Shown here: positions 6,648 to 24,179 of the stretch, in pieces
Numbering within the stretch: the stretch's first letter is position 1
Layout: every line of letters begins with the position of its first letter
Assembly: GCF_024158605.1 (NCBI RefSeq)
Contig: NZ_JAMZGM010000026.1
Location: 1-47,789, forward strand
From: Sebaldella sp. S0638
GTDB lineage: Bacteria > Fusobacteriota > Fusobacteriia > Fusobacteriales > Leptotrichiaceae
Reading direction: 5' to 3'
DNA length: 47,789 nt
Translations under genes and position numbers: made by a program
Notes under the pieces: generated by a model
Seen by the model: only the letters and a program-made list of their open reading frames with translations
Databases searched by the model: none
What the model was told of the DNA's origin: nothing

Positions 6648-7694
6648 TTACTTTATCTGGTCTCTCGTAGGATAAACTACTATTTCGCCAGATACTATTT
6701 TTCCTTTTATATCATTTAATTTATCAATATTTTCCTGACCAATAACTTCTTTTGTAAATTCAAAATCTGTAAGCCCCAATCCGTCTTCTTTCAAACCGTA
6801 TTCATAGACTTTTCCTTCAAATTTATCTTCTGTTACTTCTTTTACTGAATTAAACACTGCTGTATCCACTTTTTTAATCATTGATGTAAGTATAGTTCCT
6901 TTTACCAGCCCGTCCTGATTAGAATCTACACCTATTGCATATATTCCTCTGTCTTTGGCAGCCTGGAATACTCCGCTTCCGCTTGCTCCTGATGCGTGAT
7001 ATATTACATCTGCTCCCTGATCTATAATGGCTCCTGCTTTTACCTTAGCTGACGCAGGATCATTAAATGCATTTGTTCCACCTATATACACAGGTAAAAA
7101 TTTTATATCAGGCTTAACATACTTTGCACCCTGTTCAAATCCTATTTCGAATTTCTGTATTACCGGAGCTTCTGCTCCTCCTACATAACCTACTACATTT
7201 GACTTAGACATCATTGCAGCTAAAGCACCTGCTAAAAAAGATCCTTCATGTTCTTTGAATGTAAGTGATGCAACATTAGGCATTCCTTCTATTGTCTCAT
7301 CTATGATAACAAACTTTTGTTCCGGAAATTCTTTTGCTACATTTACTAAAGCATCTTTCATAGTGAATCCTGTAGCCACTATTAAAGCATAATCTCCTGA
7401 TTCTGCGTATTCTCTCAGTTTATTTTCTGCTTCTGTGTTCGGGTCTTTTGGTTCATATTCGTCATAAGTGATACCAAGTTCCGCTTTTGCCTTTTCCAAA
7501 CCTCTTTTTGTAGCGTCATTATACGAGTTATCCCCTAGTCCTCCCGTAGAATAAACCACTGCTACTTTTACATTTGCATCTTTGGCAGTTCCTTCCGCAG
7601 CTGCTGTTCCTGCAGTTTCACCATCGGTGCTTTTTGATCCGCATGATATTAAAAATAACATCATCAAAGTTAAAATGAATAGTGCCTTTTTCAT
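6648..7694 (-). CDS. BMP family (PnrA/TmpC-like) nucleoside-binding lipoprotein
   Basis: This is a substrate-binding lipoprotein of the basic membrane protein family, the periplasmic receptor of purine-nucleoside ABC importers in spirochetes and other bacteria. The signal peptide ends in the lipobox LISC with Cys18 as the lipid anchor, then a low-complexity linker and the binding domain from about residue 43 (VKVAVVYSTGGLGDNSYNDA, the family signature). GVDSNQDG and TSMIKKVDTAVF are further family motifs. It is a close paralogue of the lipoprotein at 8815-9855. No permease or ATPase genes are present here, so the transporter must be encoded elsewhere. It heads the transcription unit with yjjI and yjjW. 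Confidence 0.9.
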   Translation of the reverse strand: MKKALFILTLMMLFLISCGSKSTDGETAGTAAAEGTAKDANVKVAVVYSTGGLGDNSYNDATKRGLEKAKAELGITYDEYEPKDPNTEAENKLREYAESGDYALIVATGFTMKDALVNVAKEFPEQKFVIIDETIEGMPNVASLTFKEHEGSFLAGALAAMMSKSNVVGYVGGAEAPVIQKFEIGFEQGAKYVKPDIKFLPVYIGGTNAFNDPASAKVKAGAIIDQGADVIYHASGASGSGVFQAAKDRGIYAIGVDSNQDGLVKGTILTSMIKKVDTAVFNSVKEVTEDKFEGKVYEYGLKEDGLGLTDFEFTKEVIGQENIDKLNDIKGKIVSGEIVVYPTRDQIK

Positions 7695-8814: not shown

Positions 8815-9855
8815 TTATCTTGTTGATTTTATCTCTATTTCACCATCAGCAATTTTCTTTTGTATTTCTTCCAGTTTCTTGATGTTTTCTTCACCTATTT
8901 TTTCTCTAGTAAATTTGAAATCTGTTAATCCGACTCCGCCTTCTTTCATACCGTATTCATAGATTTTCCCCTCAAATTTACCATCTTTAGTTTCATTAAT
9001 AATATTGAAAACAGCTGTATCTACTCTTTTCAGCATAGAAGTAAGAATTACGCCTTCTGCCAGTCCGTCCTGATTAGAGTCTACTCCGATAGCATAAACA
9101 CCTTTCTCTTTAGCCGCCTGGAAAACACCTTTTCCACTTGCACCTGCAGCATGGTAAATCACGTCTGCACCTTGAGAAATAAGAGCTTCTGTTCTTGCTT
9201 TAGCAGAAGTAGGGTCATTAAATGCATTTGTTCCGCCAACATAAACTACAAGTACTTTTATATCAGGCTTTACATATTTTGCACCCTGTACATAACCAAC
9301 CTCGAATTTTTGGATAAGAGGTGATTCTGCTCCTCCTACATAACCTATTACATTTGATTTAGACATCATAGCTGCAAGAGCTCCTGCAAGGAATGAACCT
9401 TCATGTTCTTTGAAACTTAATGATGCTACATTTGGCTGACCTTCTATTCTCTCGTCGATTATTGCGAATTTCTGATCAGGGAATTCTTTAGCCACATTTA
9501 ATAATGCATCTTTCATACTGAAACCTGTTGCTATAATCAAGTTGTACTGTCCGCTTTCAGCATAAGTTCTTAACTGATTTTCTGCTTCAGCACTAGGATC
9601 TTTTGGTTCATATTCGTCATATGTGATTCCAAGTTTTGCCTTAGCTTCTTCCAGTCCTCTTTTTGCCGCATCATTAAATGAATCGTCCCCAAGCCCTCCT
9701 GTAGAATAAACTATTGCTACTTTCATATCGCTTGCCGGCGCAGCTGTTTCTGTTTTAGTTTCTGCGGTACCGTCTTTCGGTGCCTCTTCTGTCTTCTTTC
9801 CGCATGATACCAGAAATAATAACGACAGTGTTAAAACTAATAAGATTTTTTTCAT
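8815..9855 (-). CDS. BMP family (PnrA/TmpC-like) nucleoside-binding lipoprotein, second copy
   Basis: This is a paralogue of the lipoprotein at 6648-7694, with long identical runs across the binding domain. Its signal peptide ends in LVSC (Cys18), followed by a Thr/Ala/Glu-rich linker and a BMP domain opening with the same VYSTGGLGDDSFNDA signature. The expected role is binding of nucleosides or a related small ligand for an ABC importer encoded elsewhere. The two copies differ mainly in the linker and in patches of the C-terminal lobe, so they may have different ligand preference. The start follows TAGGAGGAAAGTA. I see no convincing promoter directly upstream. Confidence 0.9.
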   Translation of the reverse strand: MKKILLVLTLSLLFLVSCGKKTEEAPKDGTAETKTETAAPASDMKVAIVYSTGGLGDDSFNDAAKRGLEEAKAKLGITYDEYEPKDPSAEAENQLRTYAESGQYNLIIATGFSMKDALLNVAKEFPDQKFAIIDERIEGQPNVASLSFKEHEGSFLAGALAAMMSKSNVIGYVGGAESPLIQKFEVGYVQGAKYVKPDIKVLVVYVGGTNAFNDPTSAKARTEALISQGADVIYHAAGASGKGVFQAAKEKGVYAIGVDSNQDGLAEGVILTSMLKRVDTAVFNIINETKDGKFEGKIYEYGMKEGGVGLTDFKFTREKIGEENIKKLEEIQKKIADGEIEIKSTR

Positions 9856-14224: not shown

Positions 14225-14725
14225 CTACCACTTTATTCCCGCCTTAATTCCGATTCTTGCTTCCTCAAGTTTATTTATCTGCCCTTCCAGATACGCTTCA
14301 AGATATCCTTTATCCTTTTCTGTTATTTTAAGGTTTGTAGTCGCAGCAAAATCATTATTTGTATACTTTGTATTATTTAGTATATTATCTACTGTTTTAG
14401 ATACTATAACATCTGGTATACTGTTTATAGCTTCATTTTTATTATTGGTATTTTCTACATTCAAAGCTGTCCACAGCAAGTCTGTTTCCGGCCAGAATAA
14501 TTCTATAAAAAATTTCAAAACACTGTTTTTAGTATTTGCTAAAACCCATGTTCTCAGAGTATTCAGCAGTAAAACAAGCTTTACTTTATTTAGTACATGT
14601 TTTCCGTAAATATTCAGTAAGTTTACCAGATATTCCGTCACTTTATCAAGTTTGTTTTTTTTGTAAAGAATATATGCGGTTCCTCCTATTAGTAATATAA
14701 GTATAGTTATTATGAATGTATTCAT
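14225..14725 (-). CDS. Single-pass membrane protein coupled to an amidase
   Basis: This 166-residue protein starts with one transmembrane segment (NTFIITILILLIGGTAYILY) and continues with a long, mostly helical Asn/Lys-rich tail. It overlaps the end of the amidase gene upstream by four bases (ATGA-type coupling), which is how phage lysis genes are often arranged. It could be a holin/spanin-like partner or a tail-less remnant, but it has no diagnostic motif and only one clear membrane helix. Confidence 0.55.
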   Translation of the reverse strand: MNTFIITILILLIGGTAYILYKKNKLDKVTEYLVNLLNIYGKHVLNKVKLVLLLNTLRTWVLANTKNSVLKFFIELFWPETDLLWTALNVENTNNKNEAINSIPDVIVSKTVDNILNNTKYTNNDFAATTNLKITEKDKGYLEAYLEGQINKLEEARIGIKAGIKW

Positions 14726-15321
14726 TTTTTCCCCTCCCTGAATTCTAAAACTGCTTCTGTCACAGCTTTTGCCATTGCAGCTATATTTTTATTTCCTGTT
14801 TCCAAATCCTTGCTGTTTGTAATAAAAAAGCTTTCCATCATCACAAAAGGAACTTTTGTATTCTTAAACATTGTCCATCCTCTTTGATTAAGAGCGTCTT
14901 TAGTGTCTTTGGGCTTTCTTCTTCCCTTTATTCCTCTGTCAGGAAGTTTTAGCACATCTGTGAGTTTCTTTTGCAGCAAACCTGCGAGCTTTTTCCCGTT
15001 TATGCTAGTTTCCCAGTAAAGTACCTCGGTTCCCGAAGCTTTTATATCGCTGTTCAGATGAAAGGATAAAATAATGTCGCCAGTCTGAGCTGCTTTGTTC
15101 AAATCACTTACTAATTCTTCGGTATCTGTTTTCCTCAGGATAATTTCATAATTCAGATTATTTTTCTGAAATTCCTGTATCAGATAATTTTTCACAAAAT
15201 TTTCATTCCAGTGAAATTCATCTGTTTTATAATTCTGGTTAACTGCGCCAAAATCTCTTATTATTTTTCCTGATGAAGATTTTCTGCTTCCTCCGTGTCC
15301 TATATCCAACAATATTTTCAT
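14722..15321 (-). CDS. N-acetylmuramoyl-L-alanine amidase (Amidase_3)
   Basis: This zinc amidase cleaves the bond between N-acetylmuramic acid and L-alanine in peptidoglycan. The zinc ligands His9 (DIGHGG), Glu40 and His88 (SFHLNSD) and the catalytic Glu163 (MMESFF) are all visible. It is 199 residues, a bare catalytic domain with no signal peptide and no cell-wall-binding domain, so it resembles a phage endolysin that needs a partner for export. The coupled downstream membrane protein could serve that need. No capsid, tail or integrase genes are nearby, so this may be a domesticated or remnant lysis pair. Confidence 0.85.
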   Translation of the reverse strand: MKILLDIGHGGSRKSSSGKIIRDFGAVNQNYKTDEFHWNENFVKNYLIQEFQKNNLNYEIILRKTDTEELVSDLNKAAQTGDIILSFHLNSDIKASGTEVLYWETSINGKKLAGLLQKKLTDVLKLPDRGIKGRRKPKDTKDALNQRGWTMFKNTKVPFVMMESFFITNSKDLETGNKNIAAMAKAVTEAVLEFREGKK

Positions 15322-15870: not shown

Positions 15871-15909
15871 AAAAAAGGAACTATATTTTCTATTTCAATA
15901 TAATTCCTT
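15871..15909 (-). terminator. Terminator of the RelBE-type operon
   Basis: The arms at 15875-15886 and 15898-15909 pair over 12 positions with one wobble and are followed on the minus strand by UUUUUUU. The hairpin begins at the toxin stop codon. Confidence 0.7.
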
Positions 15910-16183
15910 ATTTATACACATTCTTCCTATGACCAATATTTAAAAGTAAGATAAGAACTGTATCATCATTAATATCTGCAATAATTCTGTAATTTCCTAT
16001 TCTATATCTCCATTCTCCTGAATGGTCTCCTACCAATCCTTTACCATGTATTCTAGGATTTTCACAATTAATAAGTTTCTTTTTTATCCATCCAACAATA
16101 TAAGCACTTTCACTTTTATCCATTTTTTTCAGTTGTTTTAAACATTTTTCAGTATATTCAACATTATATTTTTTTCCTTTCAT
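15908..16183 (-). CDS. RelE/ParE-type toxin
   Basis: This is a type II toxin of the RelE superfamily, 91 residues. It opens with a YNVEYTEKCLKQLKKMD strand-helix unit and ends in WRYRIGNYRIIADI... and the conserved GHRKNVY tail. The WRYRIGxYRI segment provides the basic residues that RelE proteins use for ribosome-dependent mRNA cleavage. It begins two bases after the antitoxin stop codon, the usual antitoxin-first arrangement. Confidence 0.88.
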   Translation of the reverse strand: MKGKKYNVEYTEKCLKQLKKMDKSESAYIVGWIKKKLINCENPRIHGKGLVGDHSGEWRYRIGNYRIIADINDDTVLILLLNIGHRKNVYK

Positions 16184-16185
16184 AA

Positions 16186-16422
16186 TTATAAATCCAATTC
16201 TTTTTCAATATCCGCCTGCGAATATGTTTTCGAATTTTTTTTATATCTTGCCATCTCTTTTTTATATATGTCTAAATCTATTTCATCTTCGATTTTTTCC
16301 AATAAAGTCTTTCTTATTAGATCAGACACAGATATATTATTCATCTTCGCATAATTCTCAATAACCTTTTTTTCTTCTGATTTAACTCTAGCCTGTATTG
16401 TTTGAGTATGATTTAAATTCAC
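16186..16422 (-). CDS. RelB-like antitoxin
   Basis: This is the antitoxin of the pair. The N-terminus (NLNHTQTIQARVKSEEKKVIENYAK...SVSDLIRKTLLEKI) is a ribbon-helix-helix DNA-binding domain, and the charged C-terminal part should wrap the toxin. I choose the GTG at 16422, giving 78 residues, because GGAAG lies eight bases upstream and the promoter -10 is only about 25 bases upstream; a longer ATG-initiated frame would start inside the promoter. Autoregulation is expected from the repeats at the promoter. Confidence 0.85.
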   Translation of the reverse strand: MNLNHTQTIQARVKSEEKKVIENYAKMNNISVSDLIRKTLLEKIEDEIDLDIYKKEMARYKKNSKTYSQADIEKELDL

Positions 16423-16439
16423 AAAAACCACTTCCTTCC

Positions 16440-16475
16440 GTAACACATTGTAACACAAGCATATTTATATGTCAA
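16440..16475 (-). promoter_or_regulatory. RelBE promoter with 10-bp-spaced direct repeats
   Basis: The minus strand has TTGACA (16470-16475), a 17-bp spacer and TACAAT (16447-16452). Two direct copies of TGTGTTAC (16450-16457 and 16440-16447) overlap the -10 box at a spacing of exactly one helical turn. This fits binding of a ribbon-helix-helix antitoxin. Confidence 0.7.
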
Positions 16476-16509: not shown

Positions 16510-16539
16510 TTGCATTTCCATATATTTAAATGTTAAAAT
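16510..16539 (+). promoter_or_regulatory. Possible promoter of the Cro-like regulator
   Basis: TTGCAT, an 18-bp spacer and TAAAAT lie 30 bases before the start codon. Confidence 0.4.
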
Positions 16540-16568
16540 ATATTAAATTTTTATTTTTTGGAGGGGTT

Positions 16569-16799
16569 ATGGTTACATCTCGATTAAGAATTTTAATGGC
16601 TGAAAATAAAATAAGAAGTATTTCAGAATTATACAGGTGTTTAGACCAAAGTAACCTGTACATATCAAGGCAGACTTTGCAAAGAATAACACAGGATGAA
16701 GGTGTTAACAAAATGAATTTTGACACTATTCTAAAACTTATGAAATTCTTTAACTGTTCTCTTACTGATCTATTTGAAATTGACTGGGACACTGTTTAG
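16569..16799 (+). CDS. Cro/CI-type HTH transcriptional regulator
   Basis: This 76-residue protein is a single helix-turn-helix domain: RLRILMAENKIRSISELYRC, then ISRQTLQRI as recognition helix, and KLMKFFNCSLTDLFEID at the end, the usual close of short Cro-like proteins. I start at the ATG at 16569, which follows GGAGGGG, rather than at an earlier ATG without a ribosome site. It is divergent from the toxin-antitoxin operon with about 100 bases between promoters. The target is unknown; the neighbouring small-RNA/ORF86 unit is a candidate. Confidence 0.8.
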   Translation: MVTSRLRILMAENKIRSISELYRCLDQSNLYISRQTLQRITQDEGVNKMNFDTILKLMKFFNCSLTDLFEIDWDTV

Positions 16800-16808
16800 T
16801 GTCTTTTT
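16788..16808 (+). terminator. Compact terminator overlapping the regulator stop codon
   Basis: GACACT, a four-base loop GTTT and AGTGTC are followed by TTTTT. The hairpin contains the TAG stop codon of the regulator gene. Confidence 0.75.
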
Positions 16809-16832: not shown

Positions 16833-16861
16833 TTGACAATTTAACATATACATATTACAAT
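16833..16861 (+). promoter_or_regulatory. Promoter reading into the ORF86 leader
   Basis: TTGACA, a 17-bp spacer and TACAAT form a near-consensus promoter. It is followed by a strong ribosome-site sequence TTAAAGGAGGTGA (16871-16883) without an ATG at normal distance, and the first obvious gene begins at 17057. Confidence 0.6.
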
Positions 16862-16894
16862 ATATTTGAGTTAAAGGAGGTGAATAAAAAAATT

Positions 16895-16956
16895 AAAAAA
16901 GGCATCTGACTTTTTACGGTCAAATGCCAAAGAACTATATATAATATAAACTTAAC
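16895..16956 (-). ncRNA. Putative small RNA, copy 1
   Basis: A minus-strand promoter (16963-16991) would start an RNA of about 62 bases near 16956. It ends in a hairpin (GGCATTTGAC pairing with GTCAGATGCC, 16901-16928) followed by UUUUUU, a proper intrinsic terminator. No start codon with a ribosome site is present in it. It is antisense to the leader of the plus-strand ORF86 transcript. No known RNA family is recognised. Confidence 0.5.
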
Positions 16957-16962
16957 TCATCT

Positions 16963-16991
16963 ATTATAATATATTTCTATTTTAATTTCAA
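16963..16991 (-). promoter_or_regulatory. Promoter of small RNA copy 1
   Basis: On the minus strand TTGAAA (16986-16991), a 17-bp spacer and a perfect TATAAT (16963-16968). Both boxes are conserved in the second copy although the spacer differs at three positions. Confidence 0.6.
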
Positions 16992-17056
16992 AAAATAACA
17001 TTAAAAAACGTTGAATTTAGAAAACAATAATATTTTTAAGAGGGGGAAATTATTTT

Positions 17057-17317
17057 ATGAACAATAGTCAAAAAGATTTAATATTTTATTTTCTTGAAGA
17101 AATGGACTTAAATAATACTGACAGTACTTCTTTCCATAATCAAACCGTTACTTTAATTGAAAAATTTGAAGAAATCAGCCGGAATCATGACGAACTTAAA
17201 AATACCATGAATGAACTATCTGATCTTTTTATTAATCTGTGTGCATCTATAAAAGCCAGATATTTTGAATACGGTATTATAACTGCTTCGGTAATTGAAA
17301 ATACACGATTTGAATAA
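17057..17317 (+). CDS. 86-residue orphan protein (ORF86)
   Basis: This soluble, acidic, mainly helical protein (MNNSQKDLIFYFLEEMDLNN...) ends in an aromatic/glycine turn ARYFEYGIITASVIENTRFE. It has no signal peptide, membrane helix or catalytic motif that I recognise, and it resembles small phage or mobile-element proteins in style only. The start follows AGAGGGGGAAATTATTTT. It sits between the two halves of a repeat unit whose second copy (18701-18881) lacks the gene, so it was lost there or inserted here. Its leader is overlapped by an antisense small RNA. Confidence 0.6.
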   Translation: MNNSQKDLIFYFLEEMDLNNTDSTSFHNQTVTLIEKFEEISRNHDELKNTMNELSDLFINLCASIKARYFEYGIITASVIENTRFE

Positions 17318-17323
17318 AAATAA

Positions 17324-17355
17324 GGGTCTGTATCCTGTAATTTCAGATACGACCC
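17324..17355. terminator. Bidirectional terminator between convergent genes
   Basis: GGGTC-T-GTATC (17324-17334) pairs with GATAC-GACCC (17346-17355), with T-runs on the plus side and a T-rich stretch on the minus side. It separates ORF86 (plus) from the 105-residue protein gene (minus). Confidence 0.6.
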
Positions 17356-17373
17356 TTTCTATTTATACTTGCT

Positions 17374-17691
17374 TTATTTACATCTCAAACTTCTATCCTG
17401 ATATATTTTTTCCATTTTATCTTCTGCAATATTTTCTTTGTATACAGTACCTGTTTTCATATCCAGTTTTAAATAAGCTCTGTTTACAGTATGTGTATCA
17501 TGATCTTCAAATACTTCATACTTATACTCTTTTCCATTTATTTCCGGACTGAAATATTTCAAATTATCTTCCGGAGAAAAAGTAAGTTTTTGTTTTATCA
17601 CATTCTTTACTAACTTATCAGCATTCAAACTGCAATTCGCAAAATTCATTATCACTGAAACTAAAAATATTCCGATTATTAACTTTTTCAT
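17374..17691 (-). CDS. Small exported protein, 105 residues
   Basis: The N-terminus MKKLIIGIFLVSVIMNFANC is a signal peptide. Cys20 could be a lipidation site, but Asn at position -1 is not a standard lipobox, so the protein may simply be secreted. The mature part has a YKYEVFEDHDTHTVNRAYLKLDMKTGTVYK segment, like two to three beta strands of a small domain. AGGAG lies eight bases before the ATG. It follows the 172-residue gene by 21 bases, so both are probably on one transcript. The function is unknown. Confidence 0.65.
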   Translation of the reverse strand: MKKLIIGIFLVSVIMNFANCSLNADKLVKNVIKQKLTFSPEDNLKYFSPEINGKEYKYEVFEDHDTHTVNRAYLKLDMKTGTVYKENIAEDKMEKIYQDRSLRCK

Positions 17692-17712
17692 TTACATCAC
17701 TCCTATATTTTT

Positions 17713-18231
17713 TTATAAAGTTCCTCCTATAATATCCACATAAAAATAATAAAGATTACTCTCTATCCATCTTACCTGAAATCCATAACGGTCTCCTACA
17801 CTCATCAGGTTATATTTTCGGTCATTGCCTACATAAACCCTGTATTTTGTGTCTTCACACGTTAGCATGCCGCCCTCGGCTTTCTGATCAACATTACTTG
17901 GAATTCTTTTTTGTTTTGCTGTCACTAAACATTCTATAGAGTCAGAAGATTCCCCTTTTTGGGTTGAACCTTCAAAAGCCTCTTTTGCTGTAATAAAATT
18001 AGCTTTATTTTTAACTGCTAAGCAAACCATTCGTAGAAATATTATCTGTTTTAAAATCCCAAATTCTCTCGCATCTATTTTATTAGTAAATACATCTGTA
18101 ATTATTCCGCCATTATAATCATAGTACAAATAGCTTAAAAACCTGACAATAATAAAATAATATTTTTCCCCTCTTCTTTTCCTTTGAAAAAATTTCACTC
18201 TAGATAGAACATTCACTAAATTATATTTCAT
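17713..18231 (-). CDS. 172-residue orphan protein, start uncertain
   Basis: I do not recognise this protein. The first 30 residues are strongly basic and hydrophobic (KFFQRKRRGEKYYFIIVRF), the middle has an ITAKEAFEGSTQKGESSDSIECLVTAKQKR stretch, and the end (YRVYVGNDRKYNLMSVGDRYGFQVRW...FYVDIIGGTL) looks like a small beta domain. No ribosome site precedes the ATG at 18231, so the true start may differ or the 5' part may be degraded. It is co-directional and close to the 105-residue exported protein. Confidence 0.45.
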   Translation of the reverse strand: MKYNLVNVLSRVKFFQRKRRGEKYYFIIVRFLSYLYYDYNGGIITDVFTNKIDAREFGILKQIIFLRMVCLAVKNKANFITAKEAFEGSTQKGESSDSIECLVTAKQKRIPSNVDQKAEGGMLTCEDTKYRVYVGNDRKYNLMSVGDRYGFQVRWIESNLYYFYVDIIGGTL

Positions 18232-18350
18232 TTACTAAATATAATCAAGCAAAATATATTAGGAAGTAAACACTATTTATATTGATTTTATTCAATGTTC
18301 TAATCCAGAGCGAAGGTTTTTTTTATTTCAAGTTTATAGATTCTGTGCTT

Positions 18351-18578
18351 TTATCTGAATCTCGGCGGTCTGGTATCAAGATGTCTGTAATTATTATAAG
18401 GTACTCTCCTATTCTCATATCTTATACATCTTCCCCGTCTGTCTTTTCTTACACATACTTTTCTATAAGTATATCTTCTGTCATTTCGTCTGTTATGCCT
18501 GTCATGTCTGTATGACCCAAATCCTACAGATGATATTGATATTAATAATATCGCCATTGCTAAAATTACTTTTTTCAT
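18351..18578 (-). CDS. Small exported Arg/Tyr-rich protein
   Basis: This 75-residue protein has a clear signal peptide (MKKVILAMAILLISISSVGF) followed by a mature part of about 55 residues that is extremely rich in Arg, Tyr, His and Asn (RHDRHNRRNDRRYTYRKVC...), with two cysteines in KVCVRKDRRGRC that could form a disulfide. I start at 18578, where TTTGGAGGATAAT precedes ATG. Such composition suggests binding to anionic polymers such as nucleic acid, lipopolysaccharide or wall. The similar look of cationic peptides does not prove antimicrobial activity. Confidence 0.65.
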   Translation of the reverse strand: MKKVILAMAILLISISSVGFGSYRHDRHNRRNDRRYTYRKVCVRKDRRGRCIRYENRRVPYNNYRHLDTRPPRFR

Positions 18579-18638
18579 ATTATCCTCCAAATTTCTAATA
18601 TAGTTTAAGTCTAACATTCCTATGTGAAGATAATGTGA

Positions 18639-18664
18639 AATAATAGAATAATTATTCCATTATT
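18639..18664. promoter_or_regulatory. 26-bp near-perfect palindrome
   Basis: The arms match at 12 of 13 positions around the centre GAATAATTATTC. It lies about 60 bases upstream of the Arg-rich protein gene and could be an operator. It is also followed by TTTTTT on the plus strand, so a terminator is an alternative, although no plus-strand gene precedes it. Confidence 0.35.
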
Positions 18665-18701
18665 TTTTCTATCTTTAAAATTTCAATATTTACAGCTGTA
18701 T

Positions 18702-18763
18702 AAAAAAGGCATCTGACTTTTTACGGTCAAATGCCTAGGAACTATCTATAATATAAACTGAAC
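18702..18763 (-). ncRNA. Putative small RNA, copy 2
   Basis: It has the same architecture as copy 1: a minus-strand TTGAAA-17-TATAAT promoter (18770-18798), about 62 transcribed bases, an identical hairpin (18708-18735) and six U residues. Differences from copy 1 avoid the promoter boxes and the hairpin. It lies just past the terminator of the DUF1254 gene. Confidence 0.5.
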
Positions 18764-18769
18764 TTATCT

Positions 18770-18798
18770 ATTATAATACATTTCAATTTTAATTTCAA
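18770..18798 (-). promoter_or_regulatory. Promoter of small RNA copy 2
   Basis: On the minus strand TTGAAA (18793-18798), a 17-bp spacer and TATAAT (18770-18775), as in copy 1. Confidence 0.6.
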
Positions 18799-18848
18799 AA
18801 AATTACATTAAAAAATGTTGAATTCAGAAAACAGTTTAAATAAAATAA

Positions 18849-18881
18849 GGATCTGTATCTGGTAATTTACCATACAGATCC
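18849..18881 (-). terminator. Terminator of the DUF1254 gene
   Basis: GGATCTGTA pairs with TACAGATCC, with an inner TGGTA/TACCA extension. The hairpin starts 25 bases after the stop codon. The U-tract is poor (TTATTTTATTT on the minus strand), so termination may be partial. Confidence 0.6.
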
Positions 18882-20639: not shown

Positions 20640-22133
20640 ATGGCTATTACTATTTTAAGTGCCAGTTTTACAGGGATGAATTCATATATTGTAAATGTGG
20701 AAGTGGATATTTTTAATGGATTACCCGGTTTTTCCATTGTGGGAATGGGTGATACGGCTATTATAGAAAGCAGAGAGAGAATACGAAGCAGTCTGAAAAA
20801 TATAGATGTTATTTTTCCTGCTAAAAAAGTCGTGGTGAATCTTTCTCCAGCAGATATCAGAAAAAAAGGAAGCCAGTTTGACCTGAGTATATGTACAGGA
20901 ATACTGGCTAATTTAGGTTATATTGAAAATATGGCACGGCTGGAAAAGTATCTCATCTTAGGAGAACTTTCACTAAACTGCGCCGTAAAAAGCTGTAAAG
21001 GAATAATAAACGCTGTTATTCTTGCCAAAAACAATAATCTTGAAGGTATTATAATCCCATATGAGAATTACAAAGAAGCCTCATTAATAAAAGGAATAAA
21101 AATAGTTCCCGTAAAGAATCTAAATGATGTATTCAGATTTTTAAACGAAGGGAAATACTATACGATAAAAAACACAGAGCCTGAATCTGAACTTCACATT
21201 GACGATATAGATTTCTCCGATATCAAAGGTCAGTCCCATGCTAAACGAGCTGCTGAAATAGCTGCTGCCGGCGGACATAATCTGTTTCTTATTGGTGATC
21301 CTGGTTCGGGAAAATCCATGATAGCTAAAAGGGTTATCACTATACTCCCTCATATGCATGAAGAAGAAATAATAGAAACTACACGTATATACAGTATCGT
21401 AGGTATGCTCTCGCCGGAATTCCCCGTAGTTTCCCAAAGACCGTTCAGAGCTCCGCACCATACCGCGTCTACGGTTTCACTTGTAGGTGGTTCACAGCGT
21501 CCGGGCGAAATTTCACTTGCTCTAAACGGCATCTTATTTCTTGACGAACTTGGCGAATATCCCCTGAAATTACTGGAAGTATTAAGACAGCCCCTTGAAG
21601 ACGGGAAAGTAACCATATCAAGGGCTGATTTTTCTGCTGTATATCCTGTTAGCATGATTCTCATTACAGCATCTAACCCCAGCCCCAGCGGATATTTCCC
21701 TGATGATCCCCGCTGCACTGATACTCTGCGTGATATAAAAAGATATATAAAGAAATTCTCTGGGCCATTATTAGACCGTATGGATCTTTATGTAGAGCTG
21801 AAAAAGCTTTCCCATACAGAGATTTTGAGTATGACTAAGGGAGAATCTTCGTCTGAAATCAAGAAACGTGTTTTAAAAGCACGTAAAATACAGTATTTCA
21901 GATATAAAAGCATAAAATTAAATAAAGATATGAAAAAGAAAGACATAGAAAAATACTGTGAATTAACTGATGAAATGTTTGAGTTTTTGAACTCAGTAAT
22001 AGAAAAATTTGATCTGTCTGCGAGAGCTTATGATAAAGTATTGAAAGTAGCAAGAACCATAGCAGACCTTGAAGGAACAGAAAATATACAAATACATCAT
22101 TTATCTGAAGCTTTGAATTACAGGAAAAAATAA
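20640..22133 (+). CDS. comM: YifB/ComM family AAA+ ATPase (Mg chelatase-like)
   Basis: This AAA+ protein of 497 residues belongs to the YifB/ComM family; ComM is a helicase that promotes branch migration when single-stranded DNA is integrated during natural transformation. The N-terminal ChlI-like domain (1-170) contains GLPGFSIVGMGDTAI and VNLSPADIRKKGSQFDL. The Walker A motif is GDPGSGKS at 219-226 and Walker B is FLDELGE; RAPHHTAS is another family motif. AGAGGTGGGGG precedes the ATG. No zinc-finger insertion is seen. It stands alone, divergent from the DUF1254 gene. Confidence 0.92.
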   Translation: MAITILSASFTGMNSYIVNVEVDIFNGLPGFSIVGMGDTAIIESRERIRSSLKNIDVIFPAKKVVVNLSPADIRKKGSQFDLSICTGILANLGYIENMARLEKYLILGELSLNCAVKSCKGIINAVILAKNNNLEGIIIPYENYKEASLIKGIKIVPVKNLNDVFRFLNEGKYYTIKNTEPESELHIDDIDFSDIKGQSHAKRAAEIAAAGGHNLFLIGDPGSGKSMIAKRVITILPHMHEEEIIETTRIYSIVGMLSPEFPVVSQRPFRAPHHTASTVSLVGGSQRPGEISLALNGILFLDELGEYPLKLLEVLRQPLEDGKVTISRADFSAVYPVSMILITASNPSPSGYFPDDPRCTDTLRDIKRYIKKFSGPLLDRMDLYVELKKLSHTEILSMTKGESSSEIKKRVLKARKIQYFRYKSIKLNKDMKKKDIEKYCELTDEMFEFLNSVIEKFDLSARAYDKVLKVARTIADLEGTENIQIHHLSEALNYRKK

Positions 22134-23584: not shown

Positions 23585-24079
23585 ATGAGAAAATTATTGT
23601 TATTTACATTAGTCTTATTTGGAATCTTGAGTGTACAATCTTTAGCATGGAATTACGGATGCGGAGAAAATATCCCGCCTGATGTGTGCGGTGCAAGCAA
23701 TGGCGGTAACAGCAGCGGTGATTCATGGATTATAACGCCGACTATAGGAGCAGTTGCTATAGACCCTGACACAGGAAAATGGGCAAGTATTTCCAATACT
23801 ACAGATAGAAAAGCGGCTAAAAACAGTGTATTGGAACGTTGTGGTGCTGACTGCAAAGTTATTATGGTAGACAGCAAAAGATGTGTTGGTGTTGCTTATT
23901 CCAAAGGCGATAAAGCTTTCGGCTCTGACTCTGCTACAGATAATATCGGCGGAATCGGTTATAATACACGTGTACAGAGATCTAATGAAAAAGCACTGAA
24001 AAAATGTGAGAAAAGCGGCGGAAAAAGCTGTAAAGTAATAGTAAATGTCTGTGCTGTAGAAGGAACCACTAAATATTGA
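23585..24079 (+). CDS. Exported DUF4189 protein
   Basis: This 164-residue protein has a signal peptide (MRKLLLFTLVLFGILSVQSLA), a Gly/Ser/Asn-rich linker and a DUF4189 domain (about 50-160). The domain shows the usual GAVAIDPDTGKWAS opening, the A...SVLERCG.DCKV pairing and a second Cys-rich half (KALKKCEKSGGKSCKVIVNVC). Eight cysteines in the mature part suggest several disulfides in the periplasm. The role of the family is not known. AAAGGAGATC precedes the ATG, and a strong terminator follows. Confidence 0.85.
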   Translation: MRKLLLFTLVLFGILSVQSLAWNYGCGENIPPDVCGASNGGNSSGDSWIITPTIGAVAIDPDTGKWASISNTTDRKAAKNSVLERCGADCKVIMVDSKRCVGVAYSKGDKAFGSDSATDNIGGIGYNTRVQRSNEKALKKCEKSGGKSCKVIVNVCAVEGTTKY

Positions 24080-24108
24080 CTTATTTGATAAATTTACTAT
24101 ATATGAAA

Positions 24109-24146
24109 AAGAACCTGACTGTAGTTTTTCAGCCGGGTTCTTTTTT
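24109..24146 (+). terminator. Terminator of the DUF4189 gene
   Basis: AAGAACC (24109-24115) pairs with GGTTCTT (24136-24142), with an inner CTG/CAG pair, followed by TTTTTT. Confidence 0.7.
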
Positions 24147-24179
24147 ATAATATCGTTTCTGCTCTAATCGTTCCAAAAC

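Follow-up and report, generated by a model that had tools for sequence, protein, structure and literature searches.

The 47,789-nucleotide (nt) stretch of the Sebaldella sp. S0638 genome analysed here (contig NZ_JAMZGM010000026.1, positions 1 to 47,789; hereafter the window) contains two copies of a short repeat, each carrying on its minus strand a promoter followed by an intrinsic terminator. Taken jointly, our analyses make it likely that copy 1 encodes a cis-antisense RNA repressing the operon that begins at 17057, as a divergent member of a family of prophage leaders resembling the sar system of phage P22, and that copy 2 is a duplicate devoid of the gene. In many fusobacterial genomes this family of antisense leaders, apparently undescribed so far, directly precedes phage antirepressor genes, and the copy 1 RNA therefore probably helps to keep prophages silent.

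The two copies are ungapped direct repeats (16894-17026 and 18701-18833) with 92% identity, their 10 mismatches in 133 positions agreeing with the original prediction. On the minus strand both carry TTGAAA-17-TATAAT (16991-16963 in copy 1, 18798-18770 in copy 2), near consensus in each case (11 of 12 positions), and both units are closed by a hairpin of 10-11 base pairs (bp) and six T residues, rated as perfect terminators. The promoter and terminator scans thus bore out the order previously claimed for both copies, with about 62 nt between promoter and hairpin end and six U residues. In copy 1, the predicted RNA of about 62 nt would occupy 16895-16956 (5' end near 16956), with a terminator at 16928-16895 whose hairpin, referred to below as hairpin a, spans 16901-16928 on the minus strand. 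The predicted RNAs of both copies fold better than shuffled sequences (z about -4.3), and the window contains two occurrences of the hairpin sequence, which is absent from all of 100 shuffles. The mismatches spare both promoter boxes and the terminal 35 nt, as had been noticed; the chance probability of this pattern, about 0.01, is only suggestive because the boundaries were chosen after inspection.

Copy 1 sits between two plus-strand genes, one encoding a Cro/CI-type regulator (16530-16799; HTH_26, Pfam PF13443, E 4e-12), with relatives at loci of G003 and G002 and a terminator-like site at its end (16786-16805), and the other an 86-amino-acid (aa) protein remotely similar to DUF6809 (17057-17317), the presumed target. 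The regulator is followed by a predicted plus-strand promoter, TTGACA-17-TACAAT (16833-16861, 11 of 12 consensus matches), which places the leader of the 86-aa gene at 16868-17056. The minus-strand RNA is complementary to the 5' half of this leader and would accordingly pair with the beginning of its mRNA. The small RNA proposed from the sequence alone is consequently retained as a promoter-hairpin unit with a predicted non-coding product of about 62 nt, but not as a free-standing one, copy 1 being antisense to the leader of the 17057-17317 gene.

Searches by DNA similarity gave little. Among the 42 matches listed in the genome of the strain (4.27 Mb, 292 contigs), only the two copies are full-length, and the further matches in 60 genomes, this one included, cover only short A+T-rich stretches (best E 7.8e-7, spanning 41 of the 133 positions). 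On this basis, and with no long flanking inverted repeat among those shown, a repeated or mobile element was rejected. Comparison of the repeat with plasmids and phages by blastn returned no match, nor did the exact hairpin patterns in the genome_contigs and viral_contigs collections. Recurrence of the conserved hairpin end in other genomes, proposed as a check in the original prediction, was not observed: outside the window the pattern has no match with fewer than three mismatches, and a backward control pattern also matches at that level in 5 of the 60 genomes. The earlier statement that the RNA belongs to no recognised family is upheld by Rfam 15, which gave no match above the gathering threshold in the window or in 10 related loci and, at E up to 1 between 16500 and 19200, only a sub-threshold snR13 match outside the repeats. 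A+T-rich chance matches kept DNA similarity from leading to relatives; these were reached instead through homologues of the neighbouring protein, the leaders of these homologues and a covariance model.

A first model, R1, was trained on six leaders from remoter homologue loci, all belonging to a single other family of the order (presumably Fusobacteriaceae). Its 40 matches fell in 29 of the 98 Fusobacteriota genomes searched, the genome of the window itself contributing three. Together with locus L149, these matches formed an alignment of 41 rows (40 distinct), the window copies being left out. A promoter of the form TTGN3-17-TAYAAT is present on the antisense strand of 37 of the 41 rows and on the sense strand of none, against 18 of 8200 shuffles; a laxer test (8 of 12 positions) retrieved all 41 places but also 1001 of 2050 shuffles. 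In 37 of the 41 rows the 5' hairpin, corresponding to hairpin a, is preceded by a run of five A, which makes a U tract on the antisense strand. Its paired cells comprise 309 Watson-Crick pairs, 48 A-C combinations, equivalent to G-U wobbles on the antisense strand, and 3 G-U on the sense strand, as compared with 11 A-C and 20 G-U in the second hairpin. The alignment was fitted to a sense-strand model, a bias that runs against this result. The covariation test suggested for the unit was carried out on this wider family and was positive, with 204 double-change cells against a shuffle mean of 52 and at most 45 when the alignment was slid, counts that ignore relatedness. An antisense promoter and terminator, strand-specific wobbles and covariation can thus be read in the sequences of the relatives, together with a recurrent layout.

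The plan of the family would be a small DNA-binding protein gene, the antisense leader and an antirepressor operon, often opened by a DUF6809-like protein; the upstream protein appears mostly SymE/AbrB-like and sometimes Arc-like, the window having the Cro/CI-type regulator in this place. Neighbouring genes were read at 30 loci, and eight more stretches were also taken in. At the 30 loci the upstream gene was assigned by eye as SymE/AbrB-like (24), Arc-like (2), another protein (2) or unlisted (2, L194 and L206, upstream of which the SymE-like frame seems broken); three SymE/AbrB-like representatives were tested and fall in PHROG 2329, and one of two Arc-like proteins was tested. An antirepressor domain (Bro-N, ANT, AntA, Rha or P22_AR_N) is found in the first or second downstream gene or close by at 30 of the 41 places, counting L197 and L200, whose Rha score lies under the Pfam cut-off (L200 also has ORF6C above its own cut-off), and L225, where the antirepressor is an 82-aa fragment about 500 nt away and just above the cut-off. 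P22_AR_N proteins follow L199, L216 and L229, the last in the genome of the window, and an Arc-like protein precedes L219. No antirepressor was found at the other 11 places (L203, L206, L210, L214, L215, L217, L220, L221, L222, L224 and L228); among these, L215 and L217 have no suitable first gene, L224 has only far-downstream open reading frames (ORFs) and the genes of L220 fell outside the scan. At many of the R1 places the upstream gene ends with its stop codon at the edge of the 5' hairpin, which suggests translational coupling.

A second covariance model, R2, was built from the 41 rows. It matches named fusobacterial phages, namely phiFN37 (E 2.8e-8) between genes annotated SymE and Rha-like (Pfam Rha under the cut-off), and phages FNU_1P (E 4.5e-6) and JD-Fnp3 (E 2.7e-5), in which the leader lies between two hypothetical genes, away from the SymE-like gene, and is followed by genes with no Pfam match. 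Two viral contigs match below 1e-13. When viral_contigs was scanned with DNA patterns of leaders, one pattern found two contigs and another none; scans of the same collection with the 86-aa protein found no relative, and blastn of two leaders against phages gave no match. SymE-like homologues also occur in Clostridioides phages (L237, L238, L239, L240 and L241), and in the four annotated records among these about 280-350 nt separate the SymE-like gene from the next one, which is annotated ParaA, AAA ATPase or hypothetical. C. difficile-type phage loci with a SymE-like homologue were rejected as members, R2 giving no convincing match (best E 0.24).

With filters off, the search of the window and L097 with R2 gave copy 2 the highest rank (25.7 bits, E 0.021) and copy 1 the third (23.2 bits, E 0.065); each match has the expected strand and keeps both hairpins and both promoter boxes of the model in register. 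In particular, the antisense promoter of copy 1 (16963-16991) aligns with the conserved antisense boxes. In a search of 368 kilobases (kb), the window and 320 kb of background, copy 2 was the top match (E 0.15), the best background match reaching 20.3 bits. Each copy has the antisense-strand hairpin and U tract, with a stem of 10-11 bp, six T and a single antisense G-U that is A-C on the sense strand (by eye). The upstream HTH_26 gene is present, and the locus has no downstream antirepressor operon. Two loci bridge the window and the family under R1, L147 (E 6e-5) and L149 (E 0.0027). The window is thus a probable member of the family, an assignment that relies on layout, register and these bridging loci more than on score.

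The relatives of the 86-aa protein add to this picture. It has homologues in the genus (10 aligned members, this one included) and remote ones, with a match in 18 of the 98 genomes of the phylum; its links to DUF6809 are weak (2 of the 10 members, best Pfam E 0.0014). An opposite-strand promoter-terminator cassette lies upstream of 2 of the 10 genus members, the window and L097 (G003_1588), and of the remoter members L149, with a regulator gene upstream, and L147, with no regulator found, giving 4 of 12 in total. The upstream scan covered 250 nt per genus member (123 nt for one at a contig end). As background, a cassette precedes 1 of 313 ORFs drawn from sixteen stretches of 20 kb; the shortest stem admitted was 7 bp for the family and 9 bp for this background, all four cassette stems measuring 10-12 bp. 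The order regulator, cassette-bearing leader and 86-aa-type gene is found in the window and at two other same-genus loci, and a third has the cassette without the regulator. The cassettes of relatives occupy the same leader position with a different sequence; it is the layout that recurs. L147 may in addition carry, at about 1370-1430 on the plus strand, a short leader ORF that has a ribosome site of its own and overlaps the antisense-covered part of the leader (by eye). The closest G003 relative of the window regulator (56%; L152, G003:C1:1896785-1897021) lies beside a gene like that at 20640-22133 of the window, with no 86-aa gene or cassette within the following 800 nt.

The pairing of the antisense RNA with the leader, which would be complete, would repress the operon, and we take such repression as likely. 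Most likely, pairing would change the fold of the leader and make the ribosome site less accessible, a switch that we regard as one possible way of repression, the folding predictions being mixed. In several leaders the ribosome site is able to pair with an upstream stretch, and masking the antisense-bound part lowers the predicted access of the ribosome site in the window, L149, L097 and L177 (as large a drop in 0-2 of 60 shuffles). We infer transcription of the units, repression, this ribosome-site mechanism and a role in lysogeny.

A number of observations weigh against this interpretation. The E-values of the window under R2 are marginal (0.021 and 0.065, and 0.15 for copy 2 in the larger search); a match at 24058-24148 with no evident meaning (24.3 bits) ranks between the two copies; copy 1 went unreported in the 368-kb search with default filters, as did the whole window under R1 at E 0.05; and R2 missed the L097 cassette. 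The 86-aa gene is followed by an opposite-strand gene, with no antirepressor. The cassette is absent from 8 of the 10 genus loci, including two with a regulator upstream (G002:C123 and G003:1701) and probably a third one whose parts are on two contigs (by eye, G002:C96/C148). Only 5 of the 16 remoter homologue loci were flagged for an antisense terminator and promoter (L172, L174, L177, L178 and L180); by eye both are also present in L173 and L065, and in none of the others. The folding test of the ribosome site, for its part, is weak for L147 (as large a drop in 5 of 60 shuffles) and fails for L172, L178, L065, L174 and L180.

Copy 2 carries a predicted antisense RNA (18701-18763, minus strand) differing from that of copy 1 at 4 of 63 nt, under the promoter detected at 18770-18798 by the promoter scan, which listed no plus-strand promoter just to its left. 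The similarity to the first unit resumes directly past its right end, 18835-18875 being identical to 17310-17350 at 32 of 41 positions (78%), a value reached by none of 500 shuffles, so that copy 2 looks like a longer duplicate of the unit without 17027-17309, a segment comprising almost the entire 86-aa gene together with its ribosome site. What is left of the 3' part of this duplicate (18835-18880) includes by eye a hairpin, the counterpart of one located 3' of the 86-aa gene (17322-17360), perhaps a terminator, recognised by eye and absent from the terminator-scan list. The unit had been described as present twice; both copies are real, and the second is best read as a gene-deleted duplicate instead of a second independent unit. 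As a local duplicate that has lost gene and sense promoter, copy 2 could still act in trans on the copy 1 mRNA or be a relic; its RNA would form with the copy 1 leader a duplex of -81.9 kcal/mol, against -98.3 kcal/mol for the cognate pair.

Other features of the window surround these units. A strong ribosome-site-like stretch (AAAGGAGGTG, 16873-16882, plus strand) lies just upstream of the antisense-complementary region. A leader peptide was rejected there, since no usable start codon follows the site and the frame is lost in copy 2 (by eye). A ParE-type toxin gene and its DUF6290 partner (15908-16458, minus strand) adjoin the regulator. Further left, an endolysin gene (Amidase_3, 14225-15321, minus strand) is followed by a small ORF beginning with a membrane-type stretch, and their proximity to copy 1 suggests a prophage remnant. 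Elsewhere, a 300-nt direct repeat occurs at 6680-6979 and 8835-9134 (72% identity).

Such a remnant is relevant to an alternative in which the locus is a decayed prophage leader, locally duplicated, whose cassette is untranscribed or without effect. The nearby endolysin gene, the lack of an antirepressor partner for the window gene and a mismatch pattern reaching only p about 0.01 would all suit such a relic; we consider it improbable, as the promoters have kept 11 of 12 consensus positions and the terminators are perfect, against an identity that has fallen to 78% in the 41 nt next to them. The intact promoter boxes and hairpin of copy 2, which has neither a sense gene nor a listed sense promoter just left of it, would also be expected of a free-standing small RNA gene present twice and acting in trans on targets elsewhere, its position in a leader being accidental. 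Copy 1, however, shares this position with cassettes of different sequence in relatives, and copy 2 seems to have arisen from the copy 1 unit by deletion, which makes this explanation decidedly improbable. A bolder version of the preferred reading, which we hold to be rather unlikely, would see in the family a phylum-wide prophage antisense switch, unrelated in sequence to P22 sar, spread as a movable cassette before four kinds of antirepressor, the orphan copy 2 then being a target-less immunity RNA acting in trans against the mRNAs of copy 1 and of related prophages.

Least credible of all is a type I toxin-antitoxin system in which the RNA would be the antitoxin to a hydrophobic peptide toxin. 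Promoter-65 nt-hairpin cassettes do stand beside hydrophobic ORFs of 18-19 aa near related regulator loci in G003 and G002, but they have no obvious likeness to those of the window and share the strand of their peptide ORF (by eye). A scan of 14-21 kb of the window gave one weak candidate, a mildly hydrophobic 21-aa ORF (18873-18808, minus strand; mean hydropathy 1.1) with an AGGA stretch upstream, which lies outside the RNA-paired stretch and is missing at copy 1 (by eye). The hypothesis was rejected, this sole small ORF being weak and not complementary to the RNA. The type I-like loci of the genus (L107, 10005-9946; L108, 8806-8865, 9458-9517 and 10407-10351; L161, L162, L164, L165 and L167) have hydrophobic 18-19 aa ORFs of the MSILLTVIIFFMIIAKVLY type and a ribosome site GATTGGNGGAAT. 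The pattern occurs at 9 sites in 4 of 33 genomes, seven of them encoding such a peptide, L161 a longer version and L160 an ordinary protein, and sites also occur on the two small G003 contigs and on G000:C165. Most of these ORFs have a promoter-65 nt-hairpin cassette in front of them, in which a CAATC-like stretch is complementary to the ribosome site (by eye).

Among known systems, plasmid countertranscribed RNAs, such as CopA of R1, resemble the family in being short, terminator-ended and antisense to a structured mRNA leader, and the possible leader ORF of L147 recalls the short leader ORF of some plasmid copy-control leaders; the target here, unlike theirs, is no replication gene. The SymE/SymR system, in which SymR pairs with the 5' end of symE, offers another parallel, as homologues of the upstream protein are named SymE in two fusobacterial phage records and a predicted antisense RNA adjoins. 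In the family, in contrast, this RNA lies opposite the sequence beyond the SymE-like stop codon, in the leader of the next gene. A further counterpart is the immunity I region of P22, where the repressors mnt and arc and the antisense RNA sar control the antirepressor ant (PMC2629481), sar being described as pairing with ant mRNA and blocking its translation (PMC13397905). In the family as in P22, a short antisense RNA would target antirepressor mRNA, with small repressor genes adjoining. It differs in that the antisense promoter lies within the leader, the upstream protein is mostly SymE/AbrB-like and the antirepressors are of several types. At the window locus the target is the 86-aa gene and no antirepressor is present, so that the locus is unlike sar on this point. 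The family would work like sar, but we do not class it as sar.

In the literature searched (titles and beginnings of abstracts, with few subscription journals), which is no proof of novelty, no description of the antisense-leader family was met with, and nothing was found on antisense RNA in Sebaldella, on DUF6809 or on antirepressor antisense RNA in Fusobacterium prophages. A paper on the F. nucleatum transcriptome mentions antisense transcription, the word phage being absent from the part available (PMC11005410).

If the family is real, a sar-like logic would have spread through Fusobacteriota (29 of the 98 genomes) with several antirepressor types. Antirepressors help to decide when prophages leave dormancy, and P22 provides a known example of one under antisense control. 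The orphan copy, if it is truly an antisense RNA, would represent a case of a cis RNA turned trans regulator. The family itself, if confirmed as such, would provide a concrete handle on prophage induction in Fusobacteriota.

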